This document shows positions 56,200-61,684 of a DNA stretch of 64,000 bases, in pieces. Made by a program: the position numbers and the translations under genes. Source of the DNA: Chryseobacterium sp. SC28. GTDB lineage: Bacteria; Bacteroidota; Bacteroidia; Flavobacteriales; Weeksellaceae. Under the pieces are notes generated by a model that saw only the letters and a list, made by a program, of their open reading frames with translations, searched no databases and was not told the DNA's origin. Positions within the stretch are counted from its first letter, which is position 1, and every line of letters starts with the position of its first letter. The stretch lies in contig NZ_QOVY01000004.1 in assembly GCF_003932955.1 (NCBI RefSeq), forward strand, positions 1-64,000, given 5' to 3'.

Positions 56200-59100
56200 A
56201 TGGAAACCCAACCATATACTCCAAAAAACAAAGTAAGAATCGTAACCGCAGCCGCATTATTCGACGGTCACGATGCTGCCATCAACATTATGCGCCGCGT
56301 GATCCAAGCAACAGGTTGCGAAGTCATCCACCTGGGACACGACAAATCTGCTGAAGAAGTAGTGAACACAGCCATCCAAGAAGATGCCAACGCGATTGCA
56401 CTGACTTCCTATCAAGGCGGACACAACGAATATTTCAAATACATCTATGATCTCCTGAGAGAGAAAAACGCGCCGCAAATAAGGATTTTCGGAGGCGGCG
56501 GCGGCGTCATTCTTCCGGAAGAAATCGACGATCTGATGCGTTACGGAATCGATAGAATCTATTCTCCGGACGATGGGCGCGAGCTCGGATTGCAAGGGAT
56601 GATCAACGATTTGGTGAAAAAATCTGATTTCCCCACGGGCAAGGAAGTTGCCGTAGCGGATTTGGATACCATCAGTTTTGAAAATCCTTCAAGCATTGCC
56701 AAAATCATTTCTGCAGTAGAAAACTTCTCCGAAGAAAAACCGGATTTAGTAAAAGCAATCGACGAAAAATCAAAAAATTCCAATATTCCAATTGTCGGGA
56801 TCACGGGAACTGGCGGTGCCGGAAAATCTTCTTTGATCGATGAATTGGTAAGACGATTCTTGCGATCCAATCCCGATAAAAAAATGGCCATTATCTCTAT
56901 CGATCCTTCGAAAAAGAAAACCGGAGGGGCGCTTTTGGGAGACAGAATCCGTATGAACGCCATCAACGATCCACGAGTTTATATGCGCTCAATGGCGACG
57001 CGAGAAAACAACGTTTCGGTTTCGCCTTTTATTCATTCAGCATTAAATGTGTTGAAATTGGCTGACCCTGATATTATCATTTTGGAAACTTCTGGAATCG
57101 GACAATCCGGCTCGGAAGTTTCGGATTTTGCGGATATTTCTATGTACGTGATGACGCCAGAATACGGCGCATCGACTCAGTTGGAAAAAATCGATATGCT
57201 GGACTATGCAGATTTGGTTGCATTAAATAAATCCGACAAGCGCGGCGCTCTGGATGCGCTTCAGGCCGTGAAAAAACAGTTCCAACGAAACCACCTGTTG
57301 TGGGAAAGTCCGTTGGACGATATGCCCGTTTATGCAACAAAAGCTTCTCAGTTCAATGACCACGGTACCACTGAGTTATACAATCGATTAGTTGAGAAAG
57401 TTAATGAGAAATATTCTGATTTAAATTTGCGAGCTTTTGTGGAACAGGAAATTACCGAAGAAGTAACCATCATTCCTCCAAAAAGAGTTCGTTACCTTTC
57501 TGAAATTGTTGAAAACAACAAACAATACGACGCCAATGTTGAAAAACAGGCTGAGTTAGCCAGAAAAATGTATCACATAGAAGGAGTGAAAAAATTCCTT
57601 TCCAGTGAAACGTTGGATGCCGAATATCAAAAGGCTGAAAAAGAACTTCATCAAGACAATATCGACTTCCTGAAAACTTGGGATGATACGAAACAGGCTT
57701 TCCATAAAGAATTTTATTCTTATTTCGTTCGTGGAAAAGAAATCAAAGTCGAAACCTCAACGGAATCTTTATCTCATTTAAAAATCCCGAAAATCGCTTT
57801 ACCAAAATATACCGATTGGGGCGATTTGATTAAGTGGAAGGGTCAGGAAAATCTTCCGGGCGGATTTCCTTACACCGCCGGAATTTATCCGTTCAAAAGA
57901 ACCGGAGAAGACCCAACGCGAATGTTTGCTGGGGAAGGCGGCCCGGAAAGAACCAACAGAAGATTCCACTATGTTTCTGCGGAAATGGAGGCAAAACGGC
58001 TTTCGACAGCTTTTGATTCTGTCACTTTATACGGTCAAGATCCCGCTCTGCCACCCGATATTTATGGTAAAATCGGGAATGCGGGAGTTTCTATCGCCAC
58101 TTTGGATGATGCCAAAAAACTGTATTCCGGATTTGATTTGGTGAATCCAATGACGTCGGTTTCGATGACCATCAACGGACCTGCGCCAATGCTGCTGGCT
58201 TTTTTTATGAATGTGGCCATCGACCAAAATGTTGAAAAATATATTGCTGAACACAAGCTTGAAGCGAATGTTGAGAAAGCTTTAAAAGCGAAATTCGATG
58301 ACAAAGGTTTGGAAAGACCAAAATATAACGGCGAATTACCGCCGACGAACAACGGCTTGGGTTTAAAATTATTGGGACTGACCGGAGACGAAGTCATTCC
58401 GGCGGAAGCGTACGCAAAAATTAAAGATAAAACCATCGCGACCGTTCGAGGTACCGTTCAGGCGGATATTTTAAAAGAAGATCAGGCTCAGAATACTTGT
58501 ATTTTTTCCACAGAATTTGCCTTGAGATTGATGGGCGACGTTCAGGAATATTTTATCCAAGAAAAAGTCCGAAACTTCTACTCGGTTTCGATTTCCGGTT
58601 ATCACATTGCGGAAGCGGGTGCCAATCCGGTTTCTCAGTTGGCTTTTACGCTCGCAAATGGTTTCACTTACGTTGAATATTATCTGTCCAGAGGAATGGA
58701 CATCAACGATTTTGCCCCCAATTTATCATTTTTCTTTTCCAACGGAATCGACCCCGAATATTCGGTAATCGGCCGCGTGGCGAGGAAAATCTGGGCCAAA
58801 GCTATGAAATTCAAATATGGCGCAGACGAAAGAAGCCAGATGCTGAAATACCACATTCAAACTTCCGGCCGCTCGCTTCACGCTCAGGAAATTGATTTTA
58901 ATGATATCCGGACAACGCTTCAGGCGCTTTATGCCATCTATGACAATTGTAATTCACTCCACACGAATGCTTATGACGAAGCGATTACGACGCCGACTGA
59001 GCAATCCGTACGAAGAGCGATGGCAATCCAATTAATTATCAATAAAGAATTGGGTTTAGCGAAAAATGAAAATCCGCTTCAAGGTTCATTTATTATTGAG

Positions 59101-59547
59101 GAATTGACGGATTTGGTGGAAGAAGCGGTTTACGCAGAATTCGACAGAATCACAGAAAGAGGTGGCGTTTTGGGTGCGATGGAAACGATGTATCAACGTT
59201 CAAAAATTCAGGAAGAATCGATGCATTACGAGTGGTTGAAGCACACCGGAGAATATCCGATCATCGGCGTGAATACTTTCCTGGGAAAAGATGGGTCGCC
59301 CACGGTTCGTCCGGGAGAAGTGATCCGTTCGACTGAGGAAGAAAAGCAGGTTCAAATCAAAACGCTTCACAACTTCCAAGAAGCTAATGAAGACAAATCT
59401 GAAGCCGCTCTGAAAACCTTGCAACACGCTGCCATCAATCAGCAGAATCTGTTCAATGTGATGATGGATGCCGTGAAATACTGTTCGCTTGGGCAGATCA
59501 CCAATGCTTTGTTCGAAGTGGGTGGGAAGTATAGAAGGAACATGTAG
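56200..59547 (+). CDS. icmF: Fused isobutyryl-CoA mutase (IcmF-type: B12 domain, G-protein chaperone, mutase)
   Basis: IcmF isomerises acyl-CoAs such as isobutyryl-CoA and n-butyryl-CoA with adenosylcobalamin, and carries its own GTPase chaperone. The 1115-residue protein shows the full order. The B12-binding domain has FDGHDAAIN (residues 21-29, His24 as cobalt ligand) and GGGGG near 100. The G domain has P-loop GTGGAGKSS (about 203-211) and a NKSDKRG segment. A linker follows, then the mutase barrel from about 540 ([24 protein letters not shown]). The PFKR version of the active-site strand is characteristic of IcmF rather than methylmalonyl-CoA mutase, which has a Tyr-x-x-Met-Tyr type segment there. 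It stands alone, with REP palindromes downstream. Confidence 0.88.
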
Positions 59548-59556
59548 GGTATATTC

Positions 59557-59769
59557 AAACCTTCAAGGTTTTGAAACCTTGATAGCAAACGGTCGAAAAT
59601 TCAAACCTTCAAGGTTTTTGAAACCTTGAAGGTTTAATTGAAAACAAAACACACAGCAAACGATTTCAAACCTTCAAGGTTTTTGAAACCTTGAAGGTTT
59701 AATTAAACGAAACACACAGCAAACGGTCGAAAATTCAAACCTTCAAGGTTTTTGAAACCTTGAAGGTTT
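59557..59769. repeat. Array of four REP-like palindromes
   Basis: Units lie at 59557-59582 (shortened), 59603-59635, 59668-59700 and 59737-59769. Each full 33-base unit has the arm AAACCTTCAAGGTTT, a TTG centre and the perfectly complementary arm AAACCTTGAAGGTTT. Each arm is also nearly self-complementary. The spacers are related: AGCAAACGGTCGAAAATTC occurs before units 2 and 4, and ACACACAGCAAACG before units 3 and 4, so a unit of about 65-69 bases has been duplicated. The array ends 20 bases before a RAYT transposase gene, the usual mobilising partner of REP elements. Confidence 0.9.
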
Positions 59770-59789
59770 AATAAAAAAATAATTGAAAA

Positions 59790-60404
59790 ATGAACAACAA
59801 ACCTCTTCTTGAAGCGGGTAAATATTATCACATTTACAACAGAGGAAATAATGGTCAGGATATTTTTTTTGACATCAAAAATTACACCTTTTTCCTGAAT
59901 AGGTATGACCAATACCTTTCCCCTTTTTGTGATACAATTGCTTGGGTCTTATTAAAAAATCATTTTCATATTTTGGTTTATGTGAAACCTTTCGAAGAGA
60001 TAAATCTCGACAAACTAGAATATACCGCCACCGAATTTCCTAAAAAAATAGATATCCATTTGCAATTTGGACATTTTTTCAATTCTTATGCAAAAGCAAT
60101 TAACAAACGGTACAACAGAACGGGAAGTTTATTTGAAAAAAACTTTGAAAGAAAAGAAGTTCATTCTATAGATTATTTTAAAAAGCTCATCCATTATATT
60201 CATTTCAATCCGGTAAAACATAGTTTTACGCAACAAATTTGGGATTATCCTTGGAGTTCTTATGGAAGTATCATCTCACATAAACCAACAAAATTGAATC
60301 GGAAATTTGTAACAGAACTTTTTAAAAACCAAGAAGAATTTAAACTATATCATTCAGAACCAAAAGATTATGAGGACATCATAGACCTCATTATTGAGTT
60401 TTAA
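59790..60404 (+). CDS. REP-associated tyrosine transposase (RAYT, Y1_Tnp family)
   Basis: The 204-residue protein belongs to the IS200-like single-strand transposases of the REP-associated class. It starts PLLEAGKYYHIYNRGNNGQDIF, has the metal-binding HUH motif as HFHILV (His58 and His60), and has candidate catalytic tyrosines in FFNSYAKAINKRYNR (Tyr100, Tyr108). A RAYT-type end follows with YIHFNPVKHSF. Such proteins bind and cleave REP palindromes and are usually domesticated rather than self-mobile. Four matching palindromes lie directly upstream, and no IS ends are seen. It probably spread or still maintains these repeats. The frame is intact. Confidence 0.9.
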   Translation: MNNKPLLEAGKYYHIYNRGNNGQDIFFDIKNYTFFLNRYDQYLSPFCDTIAWVLLKNHFHILVYVKPFEEINLDKLEYTATEFPKKIDIHLQFGHFFNSYAKAINKRYNRTGSLFEKNFERKEVHSIDYFKKLIHYIHFNPVKHSFTQQIWDYPWSSYGSIISHKPTKLNRKFVTELFKNQEEFKLYHSEPKDYEDIIDLIIEF

Positions 60405-60478
60405 CATCAAAGTTCCAACGGTTTTCCTTAATTTGATCTGGTTTCATTTTTGATTTGTATTCAAGTACAAGACAATTT

Positions 60479-61684
60479 ATGAAACTCAAATCTCCCGAAC
60501 CGTTCTGGCTCGTCAAAGACGGCTTTAAACATTCTTATCCTTCCCTTAGAGCAGACATCCAAACCGAAATCCTCATCATCGGTGGCGGAATCACGGGTTC
60601 TCTTCTGGCGCATCAAATGATCAAAGATGGTTTTAAAACTGTTTTGGTGGATCGGAGAGAAATCGGGAACGGAAGTACGAGCGCCACAACATCAATGCTG
60701 CAGTACGAAATTGATGTTCCGCTTTTCCGACTCTCAGAAATGATCGGGAAAGAAGGCGCGGAAAAAGCGTATTGGGCGTGTTACGATTCTATTGATACTT
60801 TAGGAAAGATTTCAAAACAGATAAAGTCCGAATGCGGTTTCAAGAAAAAGGAATCACTTTATTTTGCGGCTTTCAAAAAAGATGTTCCGGATTTGAAAAA
60901 GGAATTTGAAGCCAGAAACGCAGCGAAGTTTCCTGTAAAATGGCTTTCAGCAGACGAAATTGGCAAGACATTTAAAATCGAAAATACCTTTGGCGGCATT
61001 CTATCGGAACAAGGCGGAAGCATCGACGCATTTTGTCTGGCGCACGATATTCTTCATTACAATTATAAAAAAAGTTTGCAGATTTTCGACAAAACCGATG
61101 TTATCAAATTCGATTATAAAAAAAATGGCGTCATAGCAACCACAGAATTTGGAAACAAAATAAAAGCAAAAAAAGTGATATTCTGTAACGGTTTCGAAAG
61201 TACAGAAATCATCAAAGACAATTTTGTAAAACTCCTTTCCACGTACGCCATCGTGGGCGAACAAAATGAAAAAAATCACAAAGAACTGAATGATCTTTTG
61301 GTCTGGAATACAGCCAAACCTTACATCTATATGCGGACAACCGATGATAACAGAATCCTGATTGGTGGTGAAGATGAAGAGTTCGTGAATGCTGAAAAAC
61401 GGGATTCTTTGCTTCAGGAAAAGGAGCAAAAACTCGTCAAGAAATTAGATAAATATTTACCAAAAAATGATTTCCGAACCGATTTTGTTTGGGCCGGAAC
61501 TTTTGGAGAGACCGACGACGGCTTGCCCTACATCGGCGCGCATCCCGATTTTCCGAGTGCTTATTTTGTCTTGGGATTTGGTGGCAATGGGATTACCTTT
61601 TCGGTGATTGGGATGGAAATGGCTTCTCAGTTTTTGAAAGGTCAAAAGCACGAATTATCGCAATATTTCAGATTCAGAAGATAA
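60479..61684 (+). CDS. FAD-dependent oxidoreductase (DAO family)
   Basis: The 401-residue protein has the N-terminal FAD-binding Rossmann motif EILIIGGGITGSLLAHQM followed by the Asp that binds ribose (VLVDRREIGNGST). Its C-terminal FAD contact segment is GFGGNGITFSVIGMEMA. This is the D-amino-acid oxidase/glycine oxidase-like (DadA) group, oxidising an amine or amino acid with transfer of electrons to oxygen or quinone. The substrate cannot be told. I chose the ATG at 60479; an in-frame TTG-type start at 60455 adds eight residues. No functional neighbours are evident. Confidence 0.85.
   Translation: MKLKSPEPFWLVKDGFKHSYPSLRADIQTEILIIGGGITGSLLAHQMIKDGFKTVLVDRREIGNGSTSATTSMLQYEIDVPLFRLSEMIGKEGAEKAYWACYDSIDTLGKISKQIKSECGFKKKESLYFAAFKKDVPDLKKEFEARNAAKFPVKWLSADEIGKTFKIENTFGGILSEQGGSIDAFCLAHDILHYNYKKSLQIFDKTDVIKFDYKKNGVIATTEFGNKIKAKKVIFCNGFESTEIIKDNFVKLLSTYAIVGEQNEKNHKELNDLLVWNTAKPYIYMRTTDDNRILIGGEDEEFVNAEKRDSLLQEKEQKLVKKLDKYLPKNDFRTDFVWAGTFGETDDGLPYIGAHPDFPSAYFVLGFGGNGITFSVIGMEMASQFLKGQKHELSQYFRFRR

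Follow-up and report, generated by a model that had tools for sequence, protein, structure and literature searches.

A REP–RAYT pair of the Bacteroidota type next to icmF in Chryseobacterium sp. SC28

In the REPtrons of E. coli, Stenotrophomonas and Marinomonas, as treated in the covered part of PMC8266576, a chromosomal gene encodes a HuH-Tyr enzyme (TnpA-REP or RAYT), palindromes flank this gene, further copies are dispersed, and enzyme and palindrome co-evolve. The locus reported here is alike in each of these respects. Unlike in those REPtrons, its element has no GTAG foot and consists of a strand-symmetric 33 nt with sharp edges; it also differs in the polarity of flanking C and A shown by its own family, and in its few own-type copies per genome (0–16). 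RAYT-like genes with non-GTAG repeats on their flanks, some of these self-complementary and dispersed, have been described as TIRtrons or TIRYTs, some with double-palindromic terminal repeats (PMC3733652, sections on TIRtrons), and our locus shares these traits. Those sections contain neither a family-wide consensus nor protein–palindrome covariation, and the word 'Bacteroidetes' occurs once in the main text. In PMC6006769, TnpAY1 subclass 2.6 corresponds to RAYT group 5 of Bacteroidetes; its genes are described as having, on their flanks, 'atypical secondary structures' that lack GT[AG]G and are found again elsewhere in the genome; the main-text sections covered give no structural consensus for the palindromes of this subclass. 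Overall, the REP/RAYT literature covered deals mainly with Proteobacteria and GTAG-tagged hairpins, and the Bacteroidota type is poorly described in it.

We analyzed a 64,000-nt stretch of Chryseobacterium sp. SC28 (contig NZ_QOVY01000004.1, positions 1 to 64,000), referred to as the window. Three palindromic units and a remnant take up the space from the icmF stop (59547) to a RAYT ORF (Table 1). Units 1–3 are identical, AAACCTTCAAGGTTT-TTG-AAACCTTGAAGGTTT, with perfect 15-nt arms, and each arm is itself a 7+1+7 palindrome. The start-to-start distances of the units are 65 and 69 nt, and the spacers have words in common. The predicted fold of the 33-mer was better than those of 200 out of 200 dinucleotide shuffles (z −6.1). 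A sequence-only reading of the window had described four related palindromes, three of them identical 33-base units with perfect arms, in an array ending 20 bases before an intact RAYT gene with HFH and a candidate tyrosine; we found the palindromes at 59557–59769, and the coordinates of array and gene agree. A similarity between the spacers and the start of the RAYT gene (repeat family D6, 82% over 17 nt) was too short to claim. Rfam matches in the array all scored below the gathering scores, mostly to miRNA models, and were treated as hairpin noise.

Table 1. Positions in the window of the palindrome array, the RAYT gene and their surroundings.
Feature	Position	Strand	Basis or remark
icmF-type fused acyl-CoA mutase	56200..59547	+	B12-binding, MeaB and mutase domains
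icmF–oxidoreductase gap, variable in the genus	59548–60478		RAYT and array here; compare L225, L210, L279
Palindrome remnant	59557..59582	.	26 nt; first 15-nt arm intact, second arm truncated; 9 nt past the icmF stop
REP-like palindrome unit 1, 15+3+15	59603..59635	.	Sequence
Spacer, units 1–2	59636..59667	.	AAACRAAACACACAGCAAACG common to it and the next spacer; repeat families D1, D4
REP-like palindrome unit 2, 15+3+15	59668..59700	.	Sequence
Spacer, units 2–3	59701..59736	.	Repeat families D1, D4
REP-like palindrome unit 3, 15+3+15	59737..59769	.	20 nt upstream of the RAYT ATG (59790)
RAYT (TnpA-REP-like HuH Y1 endonuclease), 204 aa	59790..60404	+	ORF intact; profile, PDB profile match, predicted fold
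HuH motif N57-H58-F59-H60	59958..59969	+	Sequence; each residue in 96–99% of 154 homologues
Candidate catalytic Tyr136 in YIHFNP	60195..60197	+	Sequence; in 95% of 154 homologues

One copy of the RAYT gene was found in the 2.74 Mb genome. Its protein matched the NCBIfam profile NF047646 (REP_Tyr_transpos) with 54.9 bits (E 8.8e-15), below the curated cutoff of 80, and is related to this family but divergent. The Pfam profile search returned no match at E 0.001; matches to Pfam CRAL_TRIO_2 (E 0.14) and, in PADLOC, to DpdG (E 0.041) were taken as chance. The sole match in a sequence-profile search against the PDB was 4er8, the E. coli TnpA-REP (E 6e-5). An AlphaFold model (pLDDT 88.6) likewise resembled 4ER8 most (Z 16.7, rmsd 2.6 over 159 residues), followed by IS608 (Z 9.4). 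The REP/RAYT identity proposed by the sequence-only reading is supported by the profile match, though below its cutoff, by the PDB match and by the predicted fold. In 154 homologues, the phenylalanine at the u position of the HuH motif was present in 99%, and S156 and S157 in 92% and 99%, respectively. Tyr136 would, by analogy, be the catalytic residue. The Y-motif consensus of the relatives is YIHNNP, compared to YIHFNP in this protein (20 of the 22 named-contig loci; L064, which has a stop, and the partial L083 were left out). The named relatives carrying RAYT homologues belong to the Bacteroidota. Among relatives with unsaturated dS, dN was far below dS (dN/dS pairs 0.050/0.54, 0.050/0.74, 0.085/0.85 and 0.024/0.32), indicating that the gene family is under purifying selection; the gene in the window gave 0.091/2.13, with dS saturated.

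Measured against the covered part of PMC6006769, the protein and its palindromes resemble subclass 2.6 in their Bacteroidota origin, the Y-motif YIH[QN]NP of the relatives, an SS motif after the core, and palindromes without GTAG. The HuH motif here is NHFH, whereas the table for subclass 2.6 gives NH[LIV]H. A long, less confident stretch of the model (about residues 66–88) lies between strand 3 and helix C, so that the extension appears to precede helix C; the 21-aa insertion given for subclass 2.6 comes after helix C and before strand 4. Because of NHFH and the apparently different placement of the extension, membership in subclass 2.6/group 5 is probable rather than proven. Subclass 2.4 (group 4) is alike in its NH[IFV]H and YIxNNP motifs, an extension after strand 3, and symmetric REPs. 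However, the 'double foot' REPs of subclass 2.4 carry GT[AG]G and its complement, which the palindromes here do not, and the table of that paper lists no SS motif for subclass 2.4, whereas one is present here.

Across the element class, the palindromes follow the consensus AAMCCTNNNAGGKTT-YNR-AAMCCTNNNAGGKTT, with 3-nt loops that vary by clade. Comparison of 219 palindromes gave sharp edges to the 33 nt: conservation was 1.6–1.9 bits at the outermost positions and at most 0.32 bits at the next base outside, while positions farther into the A-rich flanks reached at most 0.73 bits. Neither GT[AG]G nor any other conserved tetranucleotide was present at the hairpin foot in the flanks of these 219 palindromes or at 85 dispersed own-type sites.

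Judging from covariation, the element forms a hairpin that is the same on both strands, and each of its halves is predicted to be a small hairpin with covarying pairs of its own. In 37 chosen sequences, 99.6% of cells were paired in the long hairpin, with a covariation score of 0.84 compared to 0.22 when shuffled; these were hand-picked from 67 distinct arm pairs, leaving out near-duplicates and degenerate ones, which raises the percentage paired. For self-pairing within each half of the same 37 sequences, the values were 88.3% of cells compared to 73.8% when shuffled and at most 66.8% when slid, with a covariation score of 0.47 compared to 0.22 when shuffled. The percentage paired and the covariation score were reached by 0 of 500 shuffles for long and half hairpins alike. 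The number of pairs with a change on both sides was 13 (long) and 10 (half); of 500 shuffles, 51 and 55, respectively, gave values at least as high. When all 76 distinct arms were used, 4.51 of 6 possible half pairs formed, compared to 3.33 ± 0.09 after column shuffling (maximum 3.64 of 2000). The near self-complementarity of the arms, which the sequence-only reading had pointed out, is therefore the local instance of a half-pairing that is conserved throughout the class.

The predicted stability was −14.4 kcal/mol for the long hairpin and −3.1 kcal/mol per half. Of five further halves folded alone, from this or other families, some were weak or did not fold at all (AGCGTTGTTAGGGCT −0.8 and AACCCCTTCAGAGTT 0). 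Since the halves are weak alone and the long hairpin is more stable, the short hairpins may matter only when bound by protein. The AAACCGTCAAGGTTT units provide a natural example in which one short hairpin is altered and the long hairpin is kept. Other palindrome types in the family include AAACCTCATAGGTTT and AACCCTTTCAGAGTT.

Dispersed own-type sites showed a polarity in the bases next to the unit. C-unit-A or T-unit-G occurred at 54 of the 85 sites (29.6 expected), which had been made distinct by flank sequence and not by kinship, while extension of the palindrome by a matching C-G or T-A pair occurred at 3 (29.7 expected). This polarity could lend a strand to the otherwise symmetric element. 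It was weak or absent in other families (45 observed, 35.7 expected, p 0.054) and is therefore claimed for the own family only.

For the pairing of enzyme and palindrome we used 173 RAYT loci (163 after dropping identical proteins), among the matches listed, from 320 family genomes, a set of 118 relatives searched more widely, and a group of named contigs. A flanking palindrome was counted if it was 33 nt long, had at least 13 of 15 pairs, and lay within about 120 nt of the gene. Of the 163 non-duplicate loci, 143 had such a palindrome on one side or both, and 92 of 162 had it on both; the remaining 20 of 163 RAYTs had none. By comparison, a control stretch 650 nt upstream gave 2 of 155 in the same test, and no shuffled flank (single-base shuffle, one per flank) reached the threshold. 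Of 84 pairs of palindromes flanking one gene, 78 differed at no more than two positions of the arm. The palindrome sequence varies by protein clade, and across 128 RAYTs palindrome distance was correlated with protein distance (Mantel r 0.78, with 0 of 999 permutations as high), shared descent of palindrome and protein being part of this correlation. Cognate pairing and co-evolution thus emerge directly from the comparison of genomes.

The palindrome is not confined to this locus. A genome-wide count with at most one mismatch found the own 33-mer in 17 places, representing eight sites, five of which are tandem arrays, and the reversed control pattern was absent from this genome at up to three mismatches. 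Half-arms occurred 36 times exactly and once with one mismatch per strand; with the same tolerance, the reversed control gave 5 per strand. Across the family, and among the matches listed, the own type averaged 4.71 copies elsewhere in genomes with the cognate RAYT (n = 7) and 0.31 in those without (n = 313), the AAACCTCATAGGTTT type 2.40 (n = 20) and 0.68 (n = 300), and the AACCCYTTCAGAGTT type 4.80 (n = 5) and 0.26 (n = 315); all three differences had p < 1e-8, uncorrected for kinship. Within one genus, again among the matches listed, the difference held for the AAACCTCATAGGTTT type (2.59, n = 17, and 1.15, n = 156; p 3e-5) and the own type (2.00, n = 3, and 0.37, n = 170; p 0.005), and was not found for the third type (AACCCYTTCAGAGTT, AACCCY; 5.00, n = 4, and 3.58, n = 19; p 0.33). 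In all of these counts the palindromes flanking RAYT itself were subtracted, and 'with RAYT' meant an exact palindrome beside a gene among the matches listed, so that the 'without' group may include genomes whose RAYT is unlisted or altered. One genome counted as without (G137) has a broken RAYT homologue. The expectation that palindrome abundance follows the RAYT was thus borne out for the own, AAACCTCATAGGTTT and AACCCYTTCAGAGTT types family-wide and for two of them within a genus; it did not hold for the third in the within-genus comparison, and of the 313 family genomes that were counted as lacking the cognate RAYT, 43 still have exact own-type palindromes.

That genomes lacking a RAYT showed almost no mutated copies was dropped as evidence, since exact matching had been used to fetch most loci. 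The AACCCYTTCAGAGTT palindromes occurred in 19 of 23 genomes of the genus to which the genome studied here belongs, 15 of them counted as without cognate RAYT, and not in this genome itself. Mosaic repeats were seen at L299 and L300 (G137) and at L358 (G279), where palindromes of the AAACCTCATAGGTTT, AAACCTTCAAGGTTT and AAACCTAACGGGTTT families alternate in units of ~350 nt, and such mosaics are present at more than one place; own-type copies may be passengers in them. Own-type clusters were placed outside mechanically called ORFs in 83 of 84 cases, and the 83 lay between convergent (29), codirectional (51) or divergent (3) genes (raw counts).

Taken together, the locus is a well-supported REP–RAYT pair of the Bacteroidota type, and very probably a REPtron in which a chromosomal single-copy RAYT, a HuH/Y1 single-strand endonuclease, recognizes and spreads its own 33-nt palindrome. 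We infer cleavage, strand transfer and the cut position as follows. The RAYT would recognize the palindrome as folded single-stranded DNA and most likely cut at or near the hairpin foot at moments when the DNA there is single-stranded, as it can be on the lagging-strand template. Rejoining of strands would then spread the palindrome as a non-autonomous element of about 33–34 nt into intergenic sites. In this lineage, a second and less certain step of cutting and rejoining near a resident palindrome would duplicate units of about 49–162 nt, palindrome included, yielding tandem arrays in which the starts of host genes are copied.

Such copies were observed in three of the five arrays of this genome, where the spacers copy the start of the adjacent gene. 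Between thrA and thrB (NCBIfam), the spacers of a four-unit array repeat the ~130 nt lying immediately downstream, with the start of thrB among them (ORF at 2757–3692 of L291). The contig 12 array has three units with spacers that copy the start of the gene for a small FeoB-associated protein, and the repeated stretch of the contig 48 array includes the start of a 144-aa ORF. Flanking sequence is repeated in the contig 6 array too, and in the relative G034 one spacer copies the end of icmF. Array copy numbers were read from a 48-contig assembly and are provisional. One intergenic site with an own-type array here (L237, L238 compared to L284, L290) holds a palindrome of the AGCCTTGTCAAGGTT family in G001, while G018 has a degraded one there; the site looks as though it had been hit repeatedly.

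A sister species (G002), whose icmF is 94–95% identical to that of this genome, shares at least five palindrome sites with it and has further palindromes elsewhere than at icmF. At all five shared sites it has single or half units, compared to arrays at three of them in this genome, and no RAYT was detected in G002 at E 1e-10. Among themselves, the copies in the thrB array show differences at 1–9 of 97–127 positions, and relative to G002 at 14–19 of 97–125; they are closer to each other than to the sister, so this array grew after the species split. The copy at contig 12 unit 3 is equally far from its siblings (12–13 of 79) and from G002 (12 of 79) and is too diverged to date. Growth of the array by duplication of units, as the sequence-only reading had suggested, is supported by the spacer homology in the window and by this comparison at other sites. 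At thrA–thrB, the only close unoccupied relative (G020) reads TTCATT/AATTATT, whereas the sister has TTTTCATTC-unit-AACTAAATAC; no target duplication was visible at this one unoccupied site. The two differ by 42 nt, not 33–34, with other small indels present, so the exact ends of the element cannot be read from this one site.

By eye, one breakpoint falls 2–12 nt from a palindrome foot, with 1–5 nt of microhomology, in the arrays of contigs 2, 12 and 6 and at the first of two junctions on contig 48; the second of these is about 27 nt away from the foot. The main rival for array growth is hairpin-induced replication slippage or template switching, with the RAYT spreading single units only, and we give it nearly an even chance. 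Near-foot breakpoints with short microhomology are also expected from hairpin-stalled replication, and two multi-copy clusters occurred in genomes without the cognate RAYT. Against slippage, G002 has the same hairpins at the five shared sites, no detected RAYT, and no array. Multi-copy clusters were also commoner with the cognate RAYT (6 of 35) than without (2 of 56; one-sided p 0.034), in a comparison of 91 clusters from 19 of the 50 genomes holding the exact palindrome; five of the six come from this genome. As this association is weak and mostly from one genome, we propose a role of the enzyme in array growth as a hypothesis, and with considerable doubt: the RAYT itself might make the local tandem duplications, cutting at the foot of a resident palindrome so that the palindrome and up to about 130 nt beside it, such as the thrB start, are copied.

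A different role for the palindromes was considered in view of their position after icmF. The gap downstream of this gene is variable: in G019 it is about 120 nt long and contains a T-tailed hairpin, and in G002 it holds a 409-aa ORF that looks TPR-like. T-tailed hairpins after icmF were seen by eye in three relatives without RAYT at the site (G019, G004 and G002), and the array may have taken over the place of this hairpin. The sequence-only reading had called the array terminator-like, which is only partly right: a simple scan of 59300–60700 found no T-tailed terminator, and no T-tract follows the units. That the palindromes are host-selected bidirectional terminators or mRNA-end stabilizers, with a RAYT near one of them by chance, would suit the T-tailed hairpins of the three relatives at this place, the intergenic position of 83 of 84 clusters with only 3 in divergent context, and the exact arms in genomes without cognate RAYT. 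We nevertheless consider it improbable, as the units lack a T-tract, terminators need no fixed sequence and yet the family-specific arms track RAYT similarity, and a palindrome adjoins the RAYT in 143 of 163 loci. A later host role would be compatible with spread by the RAYT.

Among the matches listed, 15 family genomes have a RAYT homologue of 64% identity or more, and in 9 of these, from four genera, it lies beside icmF, which argues for positional inheritance of the gene. In Chryseobacterium polytrichastri, the icmF-adjacent homologue (L064:4001–4612) has one premature stop, an apparent recent loss. Loss of the RAYT after vertical inheritance would fit the palindromes that, judged by the sequences compared, have no cognate RAYT. 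Transposition of a whole REP–RAYT–REP locus as an IS200-like mobile unit, which would account for palindromes on both sides in 92 of 162 loci and for two copies in one genome (G034), was rejected as having hardly any likelihood, given the one RAYT found in this genome, the recurrent icmF neighbourhood (9 of 15 genomes, four genera, among the matches listed), the G034 copies, which come from an assembly that is 7% contaminated and whose flanks are 97.6% alike across 1347 nt, and searches that gave no DNA match among plasmids and one distant protein match (22.9%) among phages. In the covered part of PMC11194056, RayT orthologues close to abeS, an efflux gene, in Chryseobacterium are taken for a putative insertion; since RAYTs keep their position in the genomes compared here, some of these may instead have been inherited along with their neighbours.

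We found neither this consensus nor host-DNA arrays at REPs in the parts of the literature covered, and we make no claim that they are absent from print. For the very probable reading of the locus as a REPtron, the Bacteroidota type gains a testable anatomy, with a consensus, clade-variable 3-nt loops, many natural enzyme–palindrome pairs, and sharp edges. The sister species share palindrome sites while one has the enzyme and in the other none was detected, a natural experiment that makes the effect of a RAYT on palindromes in vivo directly testable. If the proposed enzymatic duplication is true, a RAYT would be a generator of gene-end duplications and not only a disperser of REPs.
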